A stretch of 64,000 nucleotides of DNA from Antarctobacter albus (GTDB lineage Bacteria > Pseudomonadota > Alphaproteobacteria > Rhodobacterales > Rhodobacteraceae): contig NZ_FMZI01000003.1 of NCBI RefSeq assembly GCF_900101505.1, positions 186,001-250,000 of the forward strand, given 5' to 3'. This document shows positions 1 to 36,891 of the stretch, in pieces. The notes under the pieces are model-generated. The model searched no databases. It was not told where the DNA came from and saw nothing but the letters and a program-made list of their open reading frames with translations. How positions within the stretch are numbered: the first letter of the stretch is position 1; each line of letters opens with the position of its first letter. The translations under genes and the position numbers were made by a program.

Positions 1-3000
1 CCGAGATTCGCCGGCCAGTCCGCTGCCAGCCATGCATTCCGGAAACCCGCTTGCCCAGCAGGGCGACCGGCATGGGCCCCTCGCGCTTGACGATGCCCGC
101 AATCAGCCTTTCAAGGACGAGAATGTACTCGGCATCGTAGAATTTTTCGGGGTCCGGGATCGCCTCATCCAAACCTGCATCGTTCGACCGCTCTGCGACG
201 GCTGCGTCTGACGCCCTGGTGTACTGGGCCTCCTGCCGGACAGGATCGGGCTCTGCGGTTGTTTCATTGACAATGGGTTTGGCGGTATCGGGAGCCACTG
301 GCTGACGGTCATTCGAGACTTCGGTGACTTCATCCTGCTGCTCTGGACGCATAGCTTTGCGGGCCGCGTCTTTTTCAGCTCTCTTGATGCGATCCATTTC
401 AAGATGCGCGGTCAGCGCGGCGTTTATGCGTTCGACCACTGCCGCGGGGTTGCGGAACCAGTCGGTCGACCAGATCCGAAATATCGTCCAGCCAAGGTTC
501 TCAAGCACCGCCTGCCGCAACTTGTCACGATCTCGCGCCGTGGCAGAGCCGTGATAGGTTGCGCCGTCGCATTCGATCCCGGCGAGGTAGATGCCAGCAT
601 GATCCGGATGCACGACGCCCAGGTCGATACGGAAGCCTGACACGCCGATCTGTGGGCGCAGTTCCCATCCTTTCGCCTCGATGGCGGCCTTGATCGCGGC
701 CTCGAAGAGGTTCTCGACCGGGCCAAGCGAACCTTCGTCCTGGGCGGGGAGCGCCTCGGGACCGCGCGCAGCGAAGTCCAGGAAGTTCTTGAGATGCCTT
801 ACGCCAATGGCCCTGGTCCGGGTCAGATCAATCTGGTCGGCACGGATCGAAGCAAAGACATGCAACTCGGCTCGCGCGCGGGTGACTGCCACGTTTAGAC
901 GCTTTTCGCCACCATCGCCATTCAGGGCGCCAAAGGCCATTGACAGCTTGCCGGCATGATCTGGACCGAAGGTGATCGAAAACAGCATCACGTCGCGTTC
1001 GTCGCCCTGAATGTTCTCCAGGTTCTTGACGATGACCGGCTCTTCCCGGGCGTCCTCGAAGAACCACTCCAGATCGGGGTTCTTGCGCCGCTCTTCGTCG
1101 AGCAGGTCCAGGATAAGCCCCTGCTGCTCGGCGTTGAAGGTGATGACGCCGAGCGTCAGTCTCTCTTCCTCCGGCCAGGTCAGCCATTCGTTCAGGCGCC
1201 GAACAGTCATGCGGACGATGGCGCGGGCCTCTGCCTCGTTGGTCCGGCCCTGACCCCGACCGTATACGCCATCGACCTGGTGCAGGCTGACCGCCCCCGA
1301 AGCCGTTTCCGGAGACGGGAAGGTCACCAGGCGGCCGCCGTAGTAATGCCAGTTGGAGAAGGCGATCAGGGCCTCGTCCCGGCTGCGGTAGTGCCAGTCG
1401 AGCTGCTGGGTCGGGATACCTGCTGCGGCGACCTCGTCCAGGATCGATGCAAGATCGCGCTCTGACTCGGGCAATTCTTCTTCGCCGGAGTCGCTGCGCC
1501 CGAAGAAATTTGTCGGGGGCAGCTGCTTGGGGTCCCCCACGATGATCGCCTGTTTGCCACGCGCGATGGCGCCAATCGCATCCCAGGTGGTGATTTGCGA
1601 CGCCTCGTCGAAGATCACCACGTCGAAGGCGGCCTGCCCGGCCGGGAGGTACTGTGCCACCGAAAGAGGGGACATCAGCACACAGGGCGCCAGCTTGGTG
1701 AAGGCGTCGGGCATTTCCGAGATCAGCTTGCGGATCGGCATGCTGGGCCGCTGCAGGTTCAGCTGATGCCTCAGGGTTCCGAGTTCCGATTTGCGAGGCA
1801 CGCCGTCCTGTGCGGGCAGCCCATGCTGGATGCGGGACAGGACCTGACCGGCGGCCATCTCCGTCGCGCGGTCGTCCAACGCCCGGAACCGCCTGATCGC
1901 ATCCTCATGCGACCAATGCGAGAAGCCGCGCAGCTCGGGCTGCGCATCCATCGTTCGCGGAAGCCACCAAGCCGCGTAGGCCGCGGCAAAGGCCGCATCG
2001 ACGTCGCCCTCGATCCGGCCCTCTTCGACCGCAAGGACCAGGGCATCGAGCCCGGCGCCCTTGGCTTGAGAACGCACTTCGATCCACCGGGTCCAGTCCT
2101 GCAAGTGTTCCTTGTTGTCCTGGATTTCCTGCAAGGCTACGAGCAGCTCTGACAGGGCGAGACCTTCGGGCGATGCCTGAGATACTTGCGCGAAGGCGGC
2201 GATGTGCTCTTTCCAGGTGTCGTGCTTGCGCTGGAACCGGGTCACTGCGTTTCGCAGATCGCCGGCACTCCGTTTGGCGAGGCTCAGGCACGCCCCATCC
2301 CAGCGGGCCGGGTCTGAGACGGCAGGTGCGGCCTCGGCAAGCGCGGCCTTCAATGTGCGCGCCTGTTCGATCCAGCTGGCAAGGTGTGCCGCATCGGTTT
2401 CCACGCCCTTGACCGCGGGGCATTCGGTCAGCGGGGTTGCCGCGATCTCGGCCCGGGCGCGATTGGCGTCAGCCAGCGCGGTGATGTCCGAATGGGGATC
2501 CGCTTTCCCGCCCTCCGCGTAGGACTGCAAGAGCTTGCGCACCGAGGATTTGGCAAAGACCGAGAAAGGCCACATCTTGGTCTGCGCGAGCCGCCAATCG
2601 GCATCGAGTTGATCCAACGGAATGGAATCCAACCGATCCATCGGATAGCGCCCGGCGGTCCGTCCGGCAGCGGCGGTGTAGGCCGCAAGCCTGTCCCGCA
2701 GCATTTCGGCCTGCGCCTGCATTTCCTCGACATCGTGCGCCAGTGCCCAGCTCACGTCGTCACCATCGGCGGGGATCGAGGACAGGGCCAGCAGTGGAGC
2801 CAGCTCGGCAGTCTCGCCGGTCCCCGTCCAGGTCAACCCGGCATGATGAGCGAGGGCCTCGGTTGCCTCGGCCAGCTCTCGGGTTGCCGTGCTCAGCTTG
2901 GCACAGCGGTCCAGAAGATCCGCTTGCCAGCCGAAGGACCACTCTTCTGCCTGCACCAGTGGAAGGGGCTTGCGGTCCGCGACGATTTCCCGGCATCGTC

Positions 3001-25076: not shown

Positions 25077-25505
25077 TCAGACGACTTCGGTCTCGACCTC
25101 GATATTGCCCTTGGTTGCGTGCGAATAGGGGCAGATGAAGTGGCCGCGCTCGGCGATCTTTTCGGCCACGTCACGGTCGACGCCGGGCATCGAGACCGCC
25201 AGTTTCACCTTCAGGCCGAAGCCACCTTCGCTACGCCCACCGATACCGACATGGGCTGTGACCTTGGCGTCTTCGGGCACGGTGCCCAGCTTTTCGTTCT
25301 GGGCGACAAAGCGCATGGCGCCGAGGTAGCAGGCGGCATAGCCGGTGGCGAAGAGCTCTTCGGGGTTGTGACCCTTGCCCGAGCCGCCCAGCTCTGTCGG
25401 GCTGGTCATCGTGACCGTCAGCATCCCCGACTCGAGGCCGGCAGAGCCGTTGCGGCCGCCGCCGGTGGCCCAGGCCTCGGTCCAATATTTCGTGTCGACA
25501 CTCAT
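25077..25505 (-). CDS. ohr: Organic hydroperoxide resistance protein Ohr (OsmC family)
   Basis: This 142-residue thiol peroxidase has the two catalytic cysteines in GYAACYLGAM and HFICPYSHAT, as in Ohr rather than OsmC. It reduces lipid and other organic hydroperoxides using lipoylated partners. It is divergent from a MarR-family gene of the OhrR type, the classic arrangement for peroxide-induced derepression. Confidence 0.95.
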   Translation of the reverse strand: MSVDTKYWTEAWATGGGRNGSAGLESGMLTVTMTSPTELGGSGKGHNPEELFATGYAACYLGAMRFVAQNEKLGTVPEDAKVTAHVGIGGRSEGGFGLKVKLAVSMPGVDRDVAEKIAERGHFICPYSHATKGNIEVETEVV

Positions 25506-25528
25506 GACATTCTCCTTTCGTGCAGGAA

Positions 25529-25595
25529 TTTATCGTGTGCGAAACATCTGTGTCGTGTGTGGATTTGTCAATGCTTGCGATTTTATCCTGCGCGA
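25529..25595. promoter_or_regulatory. Two direct repeats TTTATCsTGyGCGA in the ohr/ohrR control region
   Basis: TTTATCGTGTGCGA (25529-25542) and TTTATCCTGCGCGA (25582-25595) differ at two of 14 positions and lie 53 bp apart between the divergent ohr and ohrR genes. They could be OhrR or RNA-polymerase recognition elements. They do not match the TACAATT-type OhrR box described in other proteobacteria. Confidence 0.35.
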
Positions 25596-25609
25596 TCTAT
25601 TCCTGTGTC

Positions 25610-26077
25610 ATGTCCAGTTCTCTCTCTCCCTCGGAAATGCTCTGCTTCGCACTGTATTCGGCGGGCCACGCCATGCAGCAGGCCTACAAGCCGCTGTTGG
25701 ATCCGCTTGGCCTGACCTATCCGCAATACCTGGTGCTGACGGCGCTTTGGTCGGCGGATGACCGGCCGCTGGGATCGCTGGCGGTGCAGATGCAACTGGC
25801 CTCGAACACGCTGACGCCCCTTGTCAAACGGTTGGAGGCCAAGGGCCTTGTGACCCGGCGCCGCGACCCGGAGGACGAACGCCAGGTGCGCATCCGGCTG
25901 ACCGAGGAGGGGCGCGCATTACAGGCCCAGAGCGCGGATATAGCGCGCTGTTTCCTGGAACGGGCGGGGCTGACCATGAGCGACGCGGCAAGACTGCGAG
26001 ACGAGGTGATGACCCTGCGCGACAACCTGCGCGACGAGGCGGAACTGGACCCCGTGCGGAACGATCCCGCCGCCTAG
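25610..26077 (+). CDS. ohrR: MarR-family peroxide sensor (OhrR type)
   Basis: This 155-residue winged-helix regulator has the sensing Cys near the N-terminus in LCFALYSAGH, the hallmark of OhrR. The helix-turn-helix region LAVQMQLASNTLTPLVKRLEAKGL and the wing RRRDPEDERQVRIRLT follow. Oxidation of the Cys by organic peroxides should release it from the ohr promoter. The ATG at 25610 gives the usual length; in-frame ATG at 25571 would add 13 residues. It is divergent from ohr. Confidence 0.9.
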   Translation: MSSSLSPSEMLCFALYSAGHAMQQAYKPLLDPLGLTYPQYLVLTALWSADDRPLGSLAVQMQLASNTLTPLVKRLEAKGLVTRRRDPEDERQVRIRLTEEGRALQAQSADIARCFLERAGLTMSDAARLRDEVMTLRDNLRDEAELDPVRNDPAA

Positions 26078-26200
26078 GGCTCTGTCGGCGTGGCGGCCAA
26101 GGGGAACGACGGCCCCTTGTTTACCCTTATGCCCTCGCGCGTAAATCGGGATAGCACTGACACGGGAACGCCCCCTTCGGCACTCACGGGACGCACCCCG

Positions 26201-26226
26201 GGGTCCCGGTGTCATCGCCGGGACCC
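26201..26226 (+). terminator. Possible terminator of ohrR
   Basis: Perfect 9-bp stem GGGTCCCGG / CCGGGACCC with an 8-nt loop, 124 nt after the ohrR stop. Only a weak CTTT follows, so efficient intrinsic termination is uncertain. Confidence 0.4.
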
Positions 26227-26268
26227 GACCCTTTGTGTGCGTATTGGAACCCCTTGACGGATCGGAAC

Positions 26269-26349
26269 AAAAAAAGGCCGGGCAAGATGCCCGGCCAGGT
26301 CCAACAGGGAGGTGCATGCGATAACCCGCACATGCGACGGGACCTCTTG
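26269..26349 (-). ncRNA. Candidate FNR-controlled small RNA, about 80 nt
   Basis: Read on the minus strand, an FNR-like box (26397-26384) is centred exactly 41.5 nt before a start predicted from the -10-like TTTAAT (26362-26357). The transcript would form an outer stem AGGTCC/GGACCT (26345-26340 with 26302-26297). Inside are a GCATG/CATGC hairpin and an unpaired CACCTCCC (26314-26307), which is an anti-Shine-Dalgarno motif. It ends with a 9-bp terminator stem GGCCGGGCA/TGCCCGGCC and seven T (26296-26269). The following gap to the next gene has no coding frame. The alternative is that only the terminator is real and serves the response-regulator gene ending at 26464. Confidence 0.5.
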
Positions 26350-26363
26350 GAGCCAGATTAAAA

Positions 26364-26397
26364 CATGACCGAGTCATGAAACTATGATCTGGGTCAA
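26364..26397 (-). promoter_or_regulatory. FNR/CRP-type box and adjacent CATGAC-CGA-GTCATG dyad
   Basis: TTGACCCAGATCAT on the minus strand (26397-26384) matches TTGAT-N4-ATCAA at eight of ten positions. Next to it a perfect 6-bp dyad with a 3-nt spacer (26364-26378) lies in the predicted promoter spacer. Together they look like an activator site plus an operator driving the small RNA. Confidence 0.45.
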
Positions 26398-26463: not shown

Positions 26464-27150
26464 TCAGCTTACAAGGCGGTATCCGCCAGATTCTGTCACC
26501 AGCAAGCGCGCGTTCGACGGATCGGGTTCGATCTTTTGCCGCAGGCGATAGATATGCGTTTCCAGCGTGTGCGTCGTCACGCCGGCATTGTAGCCCCAGA
26601 CCTCGTGCAGCAGGGTGTCGCGCGGCACGACACCCTCTGTCGACCGGTAGAGGAACTTGAGGATGTTGGTCTCTTTCTCGGTCAGACGGATCTTCTTTTC
26701 GTCTTCCGTGACCAGCATCTTCATCGAGGGTTTGAAGGTATAGGGGCCGACAGTGAACACCGCGTCCTCGGACTGTTCGTGCTGGCGCAGCTGGGCGCGG
26801 ATACGCGCCAGCAGGACCGGGAACTTGAACGGCTTGGTCACATAGTCGTTGGCGCCCGCATCGAGGCCAAGGATCGTGTCGGCGTCGCTGTCATGTCCGG
26901 TCAGCATGATAATCGGCGACTTCACGCCCTGCTTGCGCATCAACCGGCACAATTCGCGCCCGTCGGTGTCGGGCAGGCCGACGTCCAGGATCACCAGGTC
27001 GTAGATCTGTTCCTTGACCCGGGCCATCGCGCTGGCGCCTGCATCCGCCTCGAAGACCTCGAAGTCCTCGGTCATGACCAGTTGCTCGGCCAGGGCCTCG
27101 CGCAGGTCTTCTTCGTCGTCGACCAGCAGGATGTTTCGCAGTTGCGCCAT
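26464..27150 (-). CDS. OmpR/PhoB-family response regulator
   Basis: This 228-residue regulator has a receiver domain (Asp12/Asp13 in LLVDDE, phospho-acceptor Asp56 in ILDVGLPD, Lys in YVTKPF) and a C-terminal winged-helix DNA-binding domain (RLTEKETNILKFL and THTLETHIYRLRQK). The sequence recalls the essential CenR-type regulators of alphaproteobacteria, but I do not assign the name. No histidine kinase is adjacent, so it is an orphan here. It is divergent from the GTP cyclohydrolase gene. Confidence 0.93.
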   Translation of the reverse strand: MAQLRNILLVDDEEDLREALAEQLVMTEDFEVFEADAGASAMARVKEQIYDLVILDVGLPDTDGRELCRLMRKQGVKSPIIMLTGHDSDADTILGLDAGANDYVTKPFKFPVLLARIRAQLRQHEQSEDAVFTVGPYTFKPSMKMLVTEDEKKIRLTEKETNILKFLYRSTEGVVPRDTLLHEVWGYNAGVTTHTLETHIYRLRQKIEPDPSNARLLVTESGGYRLVS

Positions 27151-27296
27151 TGTGCGGCCCTCCGTGTTGCCTTTTCTCGCAGATGTGGACAGAGTGCGCC
27201 TCCGGCAAGCTTTGCTGCAAGACTTTCACGTCCTCGTGTGCTGAGGGCGGAAATGTTACAGGATGCCGGGGAGTTGACCAGCCGGAGGGTGCAGAG

Positions 27297-30781: not shown

Positions 30782-31885
30782 GTGGCTGATGGAGCTAGTG
30801 GCGACGCATTTGTCGCCTTTGAGCGCGTGCAAAAAAGCTATGATGGCGAAACGCTCGTCGTCAAAGACCTGAACCTCAGCATGCCGAAGGGCGAATTTCT
30901 GACGATGCTCGGGCCGTCCGGGTCAGGCAAGACCACGTGTTTGATGATGCTGGCCGGGTTCGAGACCGCCACGCATGGCGAAATCAAGCTGGACGGCATC
31001 AGCATCAACAACATCCCGCCGCACAAGCGCGGCATCGGCATGGTGTTCCAGAACTACGCGCTGTTCCCGCACATGACCGTGGCCGAGAATCTCAGCTTTC
31101 CGCTGGAGGTGCGCAAGATCGGCAAGGCCGACCGGGAAAAGAAGGTCAAGCATGCGCTGGACATGGTCCAGATGGGTGCCTTTGGCGGCCGCCGCCCGGC
31201 GCAGCTGTCGGGTGGTCAGCAGCAGCGGATCGCGCTGGCCCGCGCGCTGGTCTTCGAGCCCGAGCTGGTCCTGATGGATGAACCGCTGGGCGCGCTGGAC
31301 AAGCAGCTGCGCGAGCACATGCAGTTCGAGATCACCAACCTGGCGCACCAGCTGGGCATCACCGTGGTCTACGTCACGCACGACCAGACCGAGGCTCTGA
31401 CCATGTCGGACCGCGTCGCCGTCTTCAACGACGGGCGCATCCAGCAGCTGGCGCCGCCGGACGCACTGTACGAAAAGCCGCAGAACAGCTTCGTCGCGCA
31501 GTTCATCGGCGAGAACAACACGCTGGAAGGCGTGGTCACGGCGATGAAGGGCGATACCTGCGAGGTGAAGCTGGACAGCGGCGAGATGCTGGACGCGACT
31601 CCGGTCAACGTCAGCGAAGTGGGTGAGCGCACGCGGGTTTCGATCCGGCCCGAGCGGGTCGAGTTCAACAAGGACCGCCTGAAGGAAGGCGCGCACACTT
31701 TGAAGGCCGAAGTGCTGGAATTCATCTACATGGGCGATATCTTCCGTACGAGGCTCCGTGTCGCGGGCAATGACGACTTCGTCATCAAGACCCGTAACGC
31801 ACCCGACCAGGTGCGTCTGGAGCCCGGCAGCCAGATCGAGATCGGCTGGCTGCCCGAAGATTGCCGGGCACTCGACGCCGGGTGA
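30782..31885 (+). CDS. ABC transporter ATPase, polyamine type (PotA-like)
   Basis: This 367-residue ATPase has Walker A GPSGSGKTT, Q-loop VFQNYALFPHMT, signature LSGGQQQR, Walker B LVLMDEP, the switch His in THDQTEA and a C-terminal TOBE_2 domain (RVSIRPERVEF onward). It powers import by the permeases encoded downstream. The GTG at 30782 with GGGAG about 7 nt upstream gives the usual N-terminus; no good ATG exists. First gene of a six-gene same-strand operon. Confidence 0.93.
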   Translation: MADGASGDAFVAFERVQKSYDGETLVVKDLNLSMPKGEFLTMLGPSGSGKTTCLMMLAGFETATHGEIKLDGISINNIPPHKRGIGMVFQNYALFPHMTVAENLSFPLEVRKIGKADREKKVKHALDMVQMGAFGGRRPAQLSGGQQQRIALARALVFEPELVLMDEPLGALDKQLREHMQFEITNLAHQLGITVVYVTHDQTEALTMSDRVAVFNDGRIQQLAPPDALYEKPQNSFVAQFIGENNTLEGVVTAMKGDTCEVKLDSGEMLDATPVNVSEVGERTRVSIRPERVEFNKDRLKEGAHTLKAEVLEFIYMGDIFRTRLRVAGNDDFVIKTRNAPDQVRLEPGSQIEIGWLPEDCRALDAG

Positions 31886-32000
31886 TCCGAATGCCGTCGC
31901 CTGCGCCGTTTGCACGCGCGCGGGGACGCGACCTTGGGGCGAGGTTCGTACCCGTAACATCGCCTCAACCAAGATAACGGGTTAACTAGGGAGTTAAATA

Positions 32001-33116
32001 ATGAAACTCACAAAGACACTGCTGGCCTCCACGGCCCTGACCGTGGCAGCCGCGGGCGTTTCGGCTCAGGACATGTCGCAAGACATGACCATCGTGAGCT
32101 GGGGCGGTGCCTACCAGAACTCGCAGCTGAAAGCCTACGTCGAACCCTATCTGGAAATGCACCCGGATGTGTCGGTGGCATGGGACGAAAGCTCTGCCGA
32201 GGCGGTGGCCAAGCTGCGCGCGATGAACGAAGCCGGCAACATCACCTGGGATCTCGTGGACGTGACCGCCGCATCGGCGATCCGCCTCTGCGACGAAGGC
32301 CTGGCGATGGAAATCGACTTTGACGACGTGCTGGCCGAAGCGCCCGATGGCACCGGCGCGGAAGATGACTTCGGCGACCTGATCGTCTCCGACTGCTTCA
32401 TCCCGCAGATCGTCTACTCGACCACCTTCGGCTATCGTTCCGACATGGTGCCGGAAGGCGTCGAGCCGCCGTCCGACGTCTGCGCCGTCTTCGACCTGGA
32501 AACCTACCCGGGCAAGCGCGCGCTGGAAAAGCGCCCGCTGAACAACATGGAATGGGCGCTGTACTGTGACGGCGTGGCCAAGGACGAGATCTACGACGTC
32601 CTGGAAACCGACGAAGGCCAGGACCGCGCGCTTGCGAAACTGGACACCATCAAGGATCAGGTGGTCTGGTGGTCGGCCGGCGCCGACACGCCGCAGCTGC
32701 TGGCGGATGGCGAGATCTTCATGGGCTCGACCTACAACGGCCGCCTCTTCTCGGTCATCGAGGAGCAGGACCAGCCGGTGGCGATGCTCTGGGACATGCA
32801 GGTGTTCGACCTTGACGGCTGGATTGTGCCCGAGGGCCTGTCCGACGACGCCCTGGCGCGCGTGATGGACTTCCTCTACTTCGCGACCGACACCCAGCGT
32901 CTGGCCGACCAGGCCAAGTACATCTCCTACGGTCCGGCGCGCGAAAGCTCGGCCCCGATGGTGTCGCAGCACGCCGAACTGGGCATCGACATGGCGCCGC
33001 ACATGCCGACCGATCCGGCGAACGCGGGCAACACCCTGCTCTACAACTACGAGTTCTGGGCTGACTACCGCGACGACATCGACGCGAAATTCCAGTCCTG
33101 GCTCGCCCAGAACTGA
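32001..33116 (+). CDS. Periplasmic substrate-binding protein, polyamine type (PotD/F-like)
   Basis: This 371-residue exported protein has a signal peptide (KTLLASTALTVAAAG, cleavage near VSA-QD). The mature protein opens with MTIVSWGGAYQ, standard for the spermidine/putrescine-binding family. Further matches are WDLVDV and YNGRLFSV. The ligand could be a polyamine or another small cation; sequence alone does not decide. AGGGAG precedes the ATG. Two strong hairpins follow it (33128-33191), consistent with higher mRNA stability for the binding protein than for the permeases. Confidence 0.93.
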   Translation: MKLTKTLLASTALTVAAAGVSAQDMSQDMTIVSWGGAYQNSQLKAYVEPYLEMHPDVSVAWDESSAEAVAKLRAMNEAGNITWDLVDVTAASAIRLCDEGLAMEIDFDDVLAEAPDGTGAEDDFGDLIVSDCFIPQIVYSTTFGYRSDMVPEGVEPPSDVCAVFDLETYPGKRALEKRPLNNMEWALYCDGVAKDEIYDVLETDEGQDRALAKLDTIKDQVVWWSAGADTPQLLADGEIFMGSTYNGRLFSVIEEQDQPVAMLWDMQVFDLDGWIVPEGLSDDALARVMDFLYFATDTQRLADQAKYISYGPARESSAPMVSQHAELGIDMAPHMPTDPANAGNTLLYNYEFWADYRDDIDAKFQSWLAQN

Positions 33117-33127
33117 TCTCGCGCCGT

Positions 33128-33191
33128 GGCGGGGATGATCCCCGCCCCGTGAGGACAACATCGTTCGTGGCGGGCGGCACCGCCCGCCACG
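33128..33191 (+). terminator. Two tandem hairpins after the binding-protein gene
   Basis: GGCGGGGA/TCCCCGCC with a 3-nt loop (33128-33146) and CGTGGCGGGCG/CGCCCGCCACG with a 4-nt loop (33166-33191) are both perfect. Neither has a T-tract, so partial termination or 3'-end protection of the upstream message is more likely than full termination. Confidence 0.6.
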
Positions 33192-33218
33192 GACCAAGAC
33201 AAACGACGGGGACACCAC

Positions 33219-33824
33219 ATGCCGAAGGGCTATATCATCGGCCACATCACGGTGACCGATCCCGAACCGTACAAGGAGTACGTGGCCCGGGACACGCCGA
33301 TCCTGCTGAGCTACGGCGCCAGGCCCCTGGTGCGCGGCGGGCAGGCCGAAGTTGTCGAGGGAACGGCCAACGAGCGGCACGTCGTCTTTGAATTCGACAG
33401 CTACGATACGGCGCTGAAGGCCTATCACGACCCCGACTACCAGGACGTTGCCAAGATCCGCCGGGACAATGCGACCAGCGCGATCATGGTCGCCGAAGGC
33501 AATGACGAGGATCTGCCCGAGCCGGCCGGCGAGGCGCCGCTGGGCTACCTGATCGCCCATGTGACGGTGAACGATCCCGAGGCCTACAAGCCTTATGTCG
33601 ACGGCAACACCCCGATCATGCGCGGCTTTGGCGCGCGGTACATCGTGCGCGGCGGACGGGCCGAAGTGCTCGAGGGGGAACTGGGAGCGCGCCACGTGGT
33701 GATCGCCTATCCCAGCTATGACGCGGCCAAGGCCGCCTATCACGATCCGGCCTACCAGGACCTCGTGAAAATCAGACAGGCCCATTCCGAGGGCACACTC
33801 ATTCTAGTGGAGGGCGCGGCATGA
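33219..33824 (+). CDS. Tandem DUF1330 protein
   Basis: This 201-residue protein is two copies of the small ferredoxin-like DUF1330 domain: residues about 1-95 (KGYIIGHITVTDPEPYKEYV) and 108-201 (LGYLIAHVTVNDPEAYKPYV). The halves share the GAR..VRGG.AEV.EG, HVV and AYHDP.YQD segments. DUF1330 proteins are normally single-domain and of unknown function; a covalent pair suggests a fixed dimer. Embedded in the transporter operon and overlapping the permease start (ATGA), it may process or sense the imported compound, which is inference. Confidence 0.9.
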   Translation: MPKGYIIGHITVTDPEPYKEYVARDTPILLSYGARPLVRGGQAEVVEGTANERHVVFEFDSYDTALKAYHDPDYQDVAKIRRDNATSAIMVAEGNDEDLPEPAGEAPLGYLIAHVTVNDPEAYKPYVDGNTPIMRGFGARYIVRGGRAEVLEGELGARHVVIAYPSYDAAKAAYHDPAYQDLVKIRQAHSEGTLILVEGAA

Positions 33825-35593
33825 GCACGCTGAAGGGATCCGGACCGCAGACGTCCGACGCACCGACGCCGGAGGATGCCTTTCACGAGGCGGCCGCACT
33901 GGACGCGCGGGAAAGTGAACCGCGGCACGGCTCCGGCAATGGGGGCCCGGTGCTGGCCGCCGACGGGACACCCCTGAAACGCAGCCTGGCGCGGGCCCTG
34001 CGGGCGCAGAAGATGCGCGCGCTGGCCCTGATCGCGCCGCTGCTGATCTTCGTGCTGCTGACCTTCATTGCCCCCATCGCGGACATGCTGTTCCGGTCGG
34101 TGGAAAACCAGATCGTGCGCGACACGCTGCCCCGCACCGTCGAGGCGCTGGCCGACTGGGATGACACCAGCGGCGAGCTGCCGGGCGATGCGGTCTTCGA
34201 CGCGGCTTACACGGACATCTTCCTGGCCGCCGAATACAAGCTGCACACGCGGCTGGGCTCGCGTCTCAACTACGAGCTGACCGGCGTGTCTTCGCTGTTC
34301 CGCAAGTCGGGTCGTGGCCTGGACGACATCGGCGAAGTCTACCTGGACCAGTTCGAGGACCTCGACGAGGCCTGGGACGAGGCGCTGCCCTGGGCAGAGC
34401 TGATGGGCACCGCCGACAGCGTGGCGGCCTACAAGGCCTGGGTCAAAGCCGAGGACAAGGCCAAGGAGAACAACGAGGACTTCAACGATCCTATCCCGGC
34501 CTTCGAGATGCGCGACGACATCGCCGATGTCTTGCCGCGCACGGCAGAGGCCTATAGCCGGTTCGCGACCTTCGTGCGTGACGAGGACGAGGACAGCCCG
34601 TTCGAGGAAGAACCCTGGACCCTCGTTGTCACCCGGCTTTACGAAGACCTGCGTGATGGCGATGTCTCGTCCTATAACGGACCCCGCGCCGAGATGCTCA
34701 AGGCAGCCGACGCGCTGGTGGACAGCCCTGATTTCCAGACTGCCGATCTTCAGGCCGCATTCGGCGAGATCGACGAGGACTGGCTGGACACACGGGTCTG
34801 GCAGACCATCAAGACCTACAGCCCCGCTTACACCAACGGCTATTTCCTGAACGCGGTGGACATGCAGAAGACGCCGGATGGCGCCGCCATGCGGGACGAG
34901 GACGAACGCATCTACGGCCTGCTGTTCAAGCGAACGATGTTCATGAGCCTTGTCATCACCTTCAGCTGTATCGCGCTGGCCTACCCGGTGGCCTACCTGC
35001 TGTCGACGCTGCCGATGCGTACCGCCAACCTGCTGATGATCCTGGTGCTGCTGCCCTTCTGGACCTCGCTGCTGGTGCGGACCTCGGCCTGGAAGGTCAT
35101 GCTGCAGCAACAGGGGGTGATCAACGACGTGCTGGTCTGGCTGGGACTTGTGGCCGATGACGGGCGATTGGTGATGATCAACAACCAGCTTGGCACGATC
35201 ATCGCCATGACCCATATCCTGCTGCCCTTCATGATCCTGCCGATGTACTCGGTCATGTCCACGATCCCGCCCACCTACGTCCGCGCGGCGAAATCGCTGG
35301 GCGCGACGAACTGGACGTCCTTCTGGCGGGTCTACTTCCCGCAGTCCGTGCCGGGGATCGGCGCAGGCAGCATCCTGGTCTTCATCCTGTCGATCGGCTA
35401 CTACATCACGCCCGAGATCGTGGGCGGCACCACCGGTACGTTCATTTCGAACCGGATTGCCTATCACATCTCGTCGTCGCTGAACTGGGGCCTCGCGGCC
35501 GCGCTTGGGACGATCCTGCTGGCGGTCGTGCTGATCCTCTACTGGGCCTACGACCGGATCGTCGGCATCGACAACGTGAAGCTCGGGGGCTGA
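33821..35593 (+). CDS. ABC transporter permease (PotB-like) with a large extra domain
   Basis: This 590-residue permease has a first transmembrane helix at about 66-88. An acidic soluble insert of roughly 280 residues (about 90-370) follows, and then the normal BPD_transp_1 core with YVRAAKSLGATNW, the EAA loop that contacts the ATPase. PotB-type proteins are usually 280-420 residues. The insert is helical, rich in Asp/Glu, without recognised motif, and should face the periplasm. It is translationally coupled to the DUF1330 gene. Confidence 0.9.
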   Translation: MSTLKGSGPQTSDAPTPEDAFHEAAALDARESEPRHGSGNGGPVLAADGTPLKRSLARALRAQKMRALALIAPLLIFVLLTFIAPIADMLFRSVENQIVRDTLPRTVEALADWDDTSGELPGDAVFDAAYTDIFLAAEYKLHTRLGSRLNYELTGVSSLFRKSGRGLDDIGEVYLDQFEDLDEAWDEALPWAELMGTADSVAAYKAWVKAEDKAKENNEDFNDPIPAFEMRDDIADVLPRTAEAYSRFATFVRDEDEDSPFEEEPWTLVVTRLYEDLRDGDVSSYNGPRAEMLKAADALVDSPDFQTADLQAAFGEIDEDWLDTRVWQTIKTYSPAYTNGYFLNAVDMQKTPDGAAMRDEDERIYGLLFKRTMFMSLVITFSCIALAYPVAYLLSTLPMRTANLLMILVLLPFWTSLLVRTSAWKVMLQQQGVINDVLVWLGLVADDGRLVMINNQLGTIIAMTHILLPFMILPMYSVMSTIPPTYVRAAKSLGATNWTSFWRVYFPQSVPGIGAGSILVFILSIGYYITPEIVGGTTGTFISNRIAYHISSSLNWGLAAALGTILLAVVLILYWAYDRIVGIDNVKLGG

Positions 35594-35595
35594 GG

Positions 35596-35703
35596 ATGAC
35601 CATTTTTCTGGAACAGCCCGATACCGAATTCCGTCCGCACGTGATGCGGGCGGCAATCGAAAAGGCGCGCGCAATGTCCGCGCCCAAGACGCAGGAGCGC
35701 TGA
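35596..35703 (+). CDS. 35-residue microprotein between the permease genes
   Basis: A short open frame starts 3 nt after the first permease stop, with GGGGG upstream, and ends 3 nt before the second permease ATG, filling the gap almost exactly. The product has an acidic start (LEQPDTEF) and a basic helical end (MRAAIEKARAM). No family is recognised. Tight packing in the operon suggests it is translated, perhaps only for coupling. Confidence 0.45.
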   Translation: MTIFLEQPDTEFRPHVMRAAIEKARAMSAPKTQER

Positions 35704-35706
35704 GCA

Positions 35707-36891
35707 ATGGCCGTCGAGACACAAGCCGTCAAACAGCCGATCCAGTTTTCCGCCCCCGTGGTCGGGGCAGCAGGGGGCTTTGCCGGGGTCTTCGTCGGGG
35801 CCGCCAACGGATCGGTCCTGATGGGCATCCTGCTGGGGTTCGTGATATTGGCCGCGCTGGCCTTTGTCGCGCTGGCCGTGCTGGACCCGAAACTGGAAAA
35901 GACCTTCAAGCTGGTCCTGATCGCCGTCATGGCGGTGGCCGGCTACCTGCTCGGTGGCCTGCCGGGCCTCGTGGTCGGTGCGATCTTCGGCTGGTTCTTT
36001 GGCTGGTTCACCTATTGGATCGGCATGGGGCGTCACCGCGTCCCGCTGCCGCCCTACCTGACCTCCGGGCAGGTGCTGTGGGAATACAGTTTCCGCGTGA
36101 TCGCCGGCGCGATCTTCGTCTTCCTGATCACTCCGATCCTCGTGGTCATGCCGCTGTCGTTCAACGCCGAGGATTTCTTTACCTTCACGCCGGAGATGCT
36201 GCGGTTCGACCCCGAGGGCTACAGCCTCAAGCATTACCGCGACTTCTTTACCTCGTCGGAATGGCAACAGGCACTGCGCAACTCGCTGATCATCGCGCCG
36301 CTGGCGACGCTGCTGTCTGTCAGCTTCGGCACCCTGGCGGCCATCGGCCTCAGCTCGGAACATGTGCCGTTCCGTCGGGCGATCATGGCGATCCTGATTT
36401 CGCCGATGATCGTGCCGCTGATCATCTCGGCCGCCGGCATGTACTTCTTCTACTCGCGGATCGGCCTGCAGGGGACGCTGATGGGCGTGGTCCTGGCCCA
36501 TGCCGCGCTTGGCATTCCCTTCGTGATCATCACCGTCACCGCGACGCTGGTGGGCTTCGACCGTTCGCTGACGCGGGCGGCGGCCAATATGGGCGCGGAC
36601 CCGGTCACGACCTTCTTCCGCGTGCAGATGCCGCTGATCCTGCCGGGGGTGATTTCGGGTGGCCTGTTCGCCTTCATCACCTCTTTTGACGAGGTCGTGG
36701 TTGTGATCTTCGTCGGCTCTGCCCAGCAGCAGACGTTGCCCTGGCAGATGTTCACCGGCCTTCGGGAACAGATCAGCCCGACGATCCTGGCGGTTGCGAC
36801 GATCCTTGTCGCGATCTCGATCATGCTGCTGACCACGGTCGAGATCCTGCGCCGCCGGTCGGAGAAGATGCGGGGTATGAGCCCGGGTTAA
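35707..36891 (+). CDS. ABC transporter permease (PotC-like) with extra N-terminal helices
   Basis: This 394-residue permease has an N-terminal extension of about 130 residues with three hydrophobic segments (around 15-60 and 68-105), then a standard PotC-type core. The EAA loop is TRAAANMGADPVTTFFRVQ and the end is SFDEVVVVIFVGSAQQQTLP. PotC proteins are normally about 260-290 residues. It is the last gene of the importer operon and is followed by a terminator at 36915. Confidence 0.92.
   Translation: MAVETQAVKQPIQFSAPVVGAAGGFAGVFVGAANGSVLMGILLGFVILAALAFVALAVLDPKLEKTFKLVLIAVMAVAGYLLGGLPGLVVGAIFGWFFGWFTYWIGMGRHRVPLPPYLTSGQVLWEYSFRVIAGAIFVFLITPILVVMPLSFNAEDFFTFTPEMLRFDPEGYSLKHYRDFFTSSEWQQALRNSLIIAPLATLLSVSFGTLAAIGLSSEHVPFRRAIMAILISPMIVPLIISAAGMYFFYSRIGLQGTLMGVVLAHAALGIPFVIITVTATLVGFDRSLTRAAANMGADPVTTFFRVQMPLILPGVISGGLFAFITSFDEVVVVIFVGSAQQQTLPWQMFTGLREQISPTILAVATILVAISIMLLTTVEILRRRSEKMRGMSPG

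Follow-up and report, generated by a model that had tools for sequence, protein, structure and literature searches.

Can one small RNA be made in two ways, cut from the tail of an mRNA when the cell is under stress and started from a promoter of its own when oxygen runs low? The question is raised by a locus on the minus strand of a stretch of Antarctobacter albus DNA (64,000 nt, referred to here as the window), for which an initial annotation proposed an oxygen-responsive, FNR-dependent small RNA with an anti-Shine-Dalgarno motif. In this paper, we argue that the RNA belongs to a family that others have already found, and we consider it likely that it has two inputs here: read-through from the neighboring gene cenR followed by processing and a class II FnrL promoter that would give a primary transcript at low oxygen. 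What is new is the conserved promoter architecture, together with a covarying pairing at the 5′ end that has no counterpart in the Rfam drawing of the family.

Identity of the Small RNA

The RNA at 26270–26342 (minus strand) matches Rfam family RF02784 (SorX) over the whole model (positions 1–73 of 73), scoring 89 bits against a gathering score of 46.6 (E 1e-20); no other Rfam family rose above its own gathering score in a scan of the 64-kb window. Going by that match, the RNA is SorX, a small RNA family already named and described. SorX matches at E 0.001 or better turn up in 188 of 198 genomes of the bacterial family and stand above the cut-off in 157.

Measured from the predicted start to the terminator, the candidate RNA would run from 26349 to 26270 on the minus strand (80 nt). 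The predicted fold of 26349–26269 has an energy of −36.4 kcal/mol (z −3.33; none of 200 shuffles was as good) and leaves CACCUCCC unpaired. The unpaired core CACCUCCCUGUUGGAC (26299–26314, minus strand, with CCTCCC from 26312) is presumed to be the pairing region; position 1 of the Rfam SorX model lies 30 nt before it, and an intrinsic terminator (26269–26296, minus strand), a 9-bp stem and then seven T, follows. The initial annotation had called a small RNA gene, a strong terminator with seven T and an exposed core that it read as anti-Shine-Dalgarno. The gene, the terminator and the core have held up; of 60 loci chosen by their SorX score, a choice independent of the core, 58 keep CCUCCC. 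The further claim that nothing in the surrounding gap is coding fared less evenly. The gap, from the end of an ohrR-like gene (26077) to the cenR stop (26464), does measure 386 nt, but open reading frames extend into it, including a 152-aa minus-strand frame (25919–26377) that spans the RNA and has no Pfam match at E ≤ 1.

The other flank of sorX (25077–26077) carries ohr (TIGR03561, above cut-off) and a MarR-type gene whose best NCBIfam match is OhrR, with a score under the cut-off. SorX is reported in PMC9438474 to be protective against organic hydroperoxides and singlet oxygen.

Second copies were also seen. Locus L002 holds, at 1501–1571 (minus strand), a SorX-like RNA that passes the Rfam cut-off at 49.7 bits and has the same CCUCCCUGUUGGAC core, and five genomes of the genus (L247–L251) hold a second SorX-like RNA at 49.6–51.2 bits; it lies behind a LysR-type gene and before a purL-type gene (both named by eye). 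None of the paralogs in L002, L003 and L004 has an FNR box, the best match having three mismatches in each. Tandem SorX matches above cut-off, ∼0.1–1.1 kb apart, occur in G190:C76, G022:C183, G148:C3, G182:C35 and G184:C1.

The Parent Gene and the Published Route

Directly upstream of SorX in the window lies a gene for a cenR-like response regulator of the OmpR family (26464–27150, minus strand; Pfam Response_reg and Trans_reg_C), the counterpart of RSP_0847 and the source of the parent mRNA of SorX. PMC9275681 identifies RSP_0847 as CenR, which is essential, partners CenK and activates its own gene, and SorX is thereby placed on the transcript of an essential, self-regulating envelope regulator. 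In the main text of that CenKR paper, the words “SorX” and “sRNA” are both absent.

Does CenR also govern the parent transcript here? Upstream of cenR, at 27226–27239 (minus strand), stands ACACGAGGACGTGA, which reads as the autoregulation-like motif ACACR-N4-YGTGA, and this motif occurs in 122 of 126 cenR upstream regions (shuffle mean 0.065, largest 3). Because it agrees with ACACGAGCGCGTGAG, the site of CenR that Table 1 of PMC9275681 gives for RSP_0847, the cenR–sorX transcript is probably under CenR control in this organism too. A conserved TGAAACA-like stretch was seen before the motif in the rows inspected. A search for an RpoH promoter in the same 126 regions came to nothing, with three patterns (possibly wrong ones) found in 0, 1 and 1 of them and shuffles giving 0.3, 2.3 and 1.7.

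In Rhodobacter sphaeroides, SorX (RSs2461) is described as a 75-nt RNA processed out of the 3′ UTR by way of a 116-nt precursor; dependence on Hfq likewise belongs to the literature on that species. It is tabled as cotranscribed with RSP_0847 from an RpoHI/II promoter (PMC3320616), its 5′ end is formed by RNase E cleavage (PMC6238624), and a review quotes it as a 3′ UTR-processed RNA (PMC9438474). The initial annotation had held that the neighboring genes alone could hardly explain the geometry of this locus. What it had missed is that SorX sits within the cenR 3′ UTR, so the neighboring gene accounts for part of the feature (PMC3320616 and PMC6238624).

As the type locus of R. sphaeroides 2.4.1 we took L099 of genome G051, because the best SorX match of that genome (2,598,225–2,598,299) adjoins the published RNase E site (2,598,224, with the pre-SorX 5′ end at 2,598,182; PMC6238624). 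There, a cenR-type gene precedes SorX in the same order as in the window.

A Putative FnrL Promoter in the Window

An FnrL/FNR-type box, TTGACCCAGATCAT, lies at 26384–26397 (minus strand), with one mismatch to TTGAY-N4-RTCAA and an exact fit to TGA-N6-TCA, which PMC4263372 gives as the FnrL core. At offset 24 after it comes a −10-like TAATCT (26355–26360, minus strand), which puts it closer to the start, by one base, than where the −10 stands most often in the relatives. FnrL-dependent transcription would be predicted to start at 26349 (minus strand), a C, 41.5 bp after the center of the box and 7 nt before position 1 of the SorX model. A near-perfect palindrome, CATGACTCGGTCATG on the minus strand, occupies 26364–26378 between the box and the −10, where it may be a further operator; it is kept in L006, L245 and L246 and absent from L243 and L244.

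The regulator itself is at hand. The genome encodes FnrL (NF045989, 461.6 bits vs. a cut-off of 300) on the same contig as sorX. FnrL ChIP-seq in R. sphaeroides placed sites in the presumed promoters of RSs0019 and RSs2461 (that is, SorX), and the authors stated that the regulatory influence of these sites could not be established (PMC4263372). FnrL control of SorX was not found in what the literature on SorX says in the parts we cite (PMC6238624, PMC8307010, PMC9779115 and PMC9438474 among it).

Taken alone, the window box is weak evidence; the window holds eight boxes with one mismatch at most, where 2.88 are expected. What lifts it above chance is its conservation, with a perfect box in 15 of 54 held-out loci against a shuffle mean of 0.02.

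The Predicted Promoter among Relatives

The loci came from 80 named contigs, where the surroundings of cenR relatives were taken, and from the surroundings of the 30 best SorX matches. Of these 114 loci (L001–L114), 109 had a cenR-type gene, and in 84 the SorX core followed within 500 nt; the 25 cenR loci lacking the core pattern include some with an altered core and some with no visible SorX. Removal of gaps >80% alike reduced the 84 to 75. The held-out set, fetched after the boxes had first been seen, consisted of the 60 genomes that followed in the list of SorX matches, and 58 of its 60 loci had both a cenR-type gene and the core (54 after near-copies were removed). Together, these are 129 nonredundant cenR–sorX gaps. 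Carrying the core was a condition for all 129, which means that its invariance among them is no evidence, and genomes without SorX are underrepresented in sets picked by cenR similarity or SorX score.

A perfect TTGAY-N4-RTCAA box is present in 37 of the 129 gaps (22/75 in the first set, 15/54 in the held-out one), and 47 (29/75 and 18/54) have a box with one mismatch at most. Two hundred dinucleotide shuffles gave far fewer: for perfect boxes, means of 0.07 and 0.02 for the 75 and the 54, with 2 and 1 the largest counts; for boxes with up to one mismatch, means of 0.98 and 0.59, with 4 and 3 the largest. Stretches of equal length downstream of SorX served as a control and held a perfect box in 1/75 and 0/54 cases, and in the 200 nt upstream of cenR, there was none among 126 regions (and two boxes with one mismatch).

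In 41 loci, the box has no more than one mismatch and lies 60 nt or more ahead of the core. Of these, 27 have TA at offset 23 past the box and a further 9 have it at offset 24 (36/41); when the box is centered at −41.5, offsets 23–28 are positions −12 to −7. The frequency of TA at this class II −10 position was 30/32, 6/9, 7/13, 2/16 and 4/26 for boxes with 0, 1, 2, 3 and 4 mismatches, with a background of 0.092. In 23 of the 41 loci, the start so predicted falls 30, 31 or 32 nt before the core, no more than 2 nt from SorX position 1, and the promoter in those 23 would therefore make SorX directly; the start predicted in the window lies 7 nt further out than position 1. As promoter architecture, the FNR reading is well supported by these elements and agrees with the published ChIP site. 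The box that the initial annotation placed at 41.5 bp thus belongs to a putative class II FNR-type promoter conserved in a good part of the relatives, and the FnrL site at RSs2461 (PMC4263372) accords with it. We infer a start at or near 26349, and induction under anoxia, for this organism. Six loci (L126, L154, L174, L052, L072 and L123) are built otherwise, their box standing right at the SorX 5′ end, 50–56 nt ahead of the core; a class II start would fall there inside or after the hairpin, near the core, and a read-through block or a shorter RNA is possible.

Close relatives bear on the matter too. Five further genomes of the genus were searched, and four (L243–L246) have sorX and the box, which is perfect in L243 and L244 (Mameliella-group); a Mameliella contig (L006) keeps the box and reads like L246 at this site. 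The fifth genome, G198 (L255, G198:C116), keeps cenR and a perfect box, and its SorX breaks off inside the first hairpin, where a transposase-like frame follows; the Rfam scan of this 2.7-kb locus found no SorX.

The initial annotation had named the loss of box, seed and terminator in relatives with conserved flanks as a result that would count against it. The seed and the terminator stay, but a box with one mismatch or fewer is absent from 82 of the 129 cenR–sorX loci. When loci are labeled box or no box on a quickly built tree of 127 cenR genes, the label has to change at least 31 times (seven of the changes are forced by well-supported branches) against a mean of 38.1 when labels are shuffled, with 4–5 of 500 shuffles as low. 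Because of these at least 31 changes, we read the FnrL-type promoter as one that is not stably inherited: it comes and goes.

A Probable Second Pairing in the 5′ Domain

The hairpin loop of the 5′ domain starts with CGGG or GGGG, and the 5′ end of SorX has CCCG or CCCC. Do the two vary together? Of the 129 loci, 110 could be parsed in a register set by CCC and GGG (19 were skipped), and in these, the base that follows CCC and the one that opens the loop form G-C in 57, C-G in 36, U-G in 6, U-A in 1 and other combinations in 10, of which 8 are C-C; G-G is absent. A Fisher value for this table ignores relatedness. Those C-C rows that were inspected have a longer C run that shifts CCCG one base on. 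When the register is left free, the count depends on what is allowed to pair: with G-U included, 103 of 129 loci pair, no excess over the permuted-loop mean of 104.2; with Watson–Crick pairs only, 92 do, against a permuted-loop mean of 60.6 and a largest value of 73 in 500.

Both stretches, the 5′ end and the loop, are unpaired in the structure line of Rfam, and in a MAFFT alignment the two sequence classes are offset from each other by one column. The covariation would be accounted for by a short H-type pseudoknot or by two hairpins that alternate, and either arrangement is predicted to leave the CCUCCC core free.

Targets

What might the core be free to do? In R. sphaeroides, SorX inhibits the translation of potA (PMC9438474). 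The best potA-family match of this genome (TIGR01187, 383.8 bits) starts at 30782, 4.4 kb from sorX, and the stretch 30782–36891 (plus strand) looks by eye like a potA-family gene followed by a binding-protein gene and two permease genes. A potA relative lies within ∼7 kb of sorX on one contig in G199, G200, G201, G202 and G002 as well. The ribosome-binding site of the window potA, ACAGGGAG, pairs with CUCCCUGU of SorX as an 8-nt complement.

We nevertheless set aside potA as a conserved target. Potential relatives were collected by a family search in this genome and G051 and by a comparison of the window potA with 41 genomes, its own included, of which 24 matched at 1e-100. Of the resulting 27 potA-like loci, eight have ACAGGGAG (L217–L222, from this genome and genus, and L225 and L230), six of these coming from this genus, and the R. 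sphaeroides relative (L188) is without it. Moreover, when the window is cut into 12,792 tiles, 580 of them form a better pairing with the core than the potA site does. With so many better tiles and an occurrence of 8/27, we claim no target.

Which Route, Which Regulator and Which Role?

The simplest objection is that SorX is made by processing of the cenR mRNA and by nothing else, the FNR-like box of the window being incidental or decayed. Several points favor it: in R. sphaeroides, RNase E cuts at the SorX 5′ end (PMC6238624) and the RNA is cotranscribed from an RpoHI/II promoter (PMC3320616); most of our loci do without a close box, and a box this good is expected about three times per 64 kb by chance. 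At the type locus (L099), the box departs from the consensus by two mismatches and runs into the cenR stop, yet TATAAA occupies the modal offset. The start predicted from this box (2,598,196) and the published pre-SorX 5′ end (2,598,182) lie 14 nt apart, so that the published precursor is left unexplained by it. In the window, the mismatch in the box, the shifted −10 and a C as the predicted first base also speak against the promoter, as do the six loci with the box 50–56 nt from the core. Against processing alone stand the box and its spacing to the −10 conserved in held-out loci, the perfect boxes in other genomes of the genus and the FnrL ChIP site at RSs2461 (PMC4263372). We regard processing alone as quite unlikely.

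Suppose, then, that the promoter is real. It could be used mainly by another Crp/Fnr protein (a nitric-oxide-sensing or FixK-like paralog), and candidates exist: the genome has 15 HTH_Crp_2 matches, 7 above cut-off, one of which reaches 229.2 bits to the FnrL model (under its cut-off of 300), and in R. sphaeroides, binding determinants are common to CrpK and FnrL (PMC4263372). The ChIP site at RSs2461, however, is FnrL's, and the passage of the same paper on the CrpK table lists RSs0019 and not RSs2461; we think this alternative unlikely. As for role, SorX could be a general anti-Shine-Dalgarno repressor of many mRNAs at low oxygen, as its unpaired CACCUCCC and the core kept in those 58 of 60 score-selected loci might suggest. 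Yet one target has been published, potA (PMC9438474), and against it stand the tile count and the 8/27 occurrence given above; a general repressor strikes us as very unlikely.

Two Probable Routes to One RNA

We are left with SorX supplied from two sides. Under stress, a cenR transcript driven by RpoHI/II would be read through and processed to SorX, as has been published for R. sphaeroides. Many relatives, and this organism with them, would have a class II FnrL promoter in the cenR–sorX gap that starts an RNA at, or a few nucleotides before, the SorX 5′ end, and at low oxygen, SorX would thus also be made directly as a primary transcript. The 5′ hairpin would probably be locked by the second pairing, in which the 5′ end joins its own loop, and CCUCCCUGUUGGA, left free, would pair with purine-rich ribosome-binding regions; what its targets in this organism are we can only infer. 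If a conserved promoter does start at the mature 5′ end, one sRNA would have two interchangeable production routes, and SorX would be tied to oxygen sensing besides singlet oxygen. This would give a concrete reading to an FnrL ChIP site that was published in 2014 without a measured effect.

A wider picture is tempting, and we offer it tentatively, with somewhat less than even confidence: a two-route sRNA of the Rhodobacteraceae in which the stress route and the oxygen route converge on one molecule with a conserved 5′ pseudoknot, so that low oxygen would preload protection for the return of oxygen or light. Gains or losses of the oxygen route would have been frequent, with the RNA and its parent gene in place throughout.

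How does this compare with what is known? A CCUCC-rich motif is found in CcsR1–4 and other sRNAs of R. sphaeroides. Like SorX, CcsR1–4 are stress-linked and derived from a 3′ UTR (PMC8625941). Their parent gene, unlike that of SorX, is ccaF1, and the likeness is one of description. Rfam also holds a model of FnrS, to which the scan of the 64-kb window gave no match. FnrS of Escherichia coli is, too, an FNR-controlled small RNA, named in PMC4263372, where it is said to differ in sequence from RSs2461, and the comparison is one of how the two may work. The nearest likeness is R. sphaeroides SorX itself (RSs2461, RF02784), which the window RNA resembles in sequence, in its two hairpins, in its core, in its terminator and in its site downstream of a cenR-type gene. 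It is unlike the published SorX in one respect, namely that, from the conserved class II promoter predicted in the window and its relatives, one would expect a primary transcript whose 5′ end is the same or nearly so.
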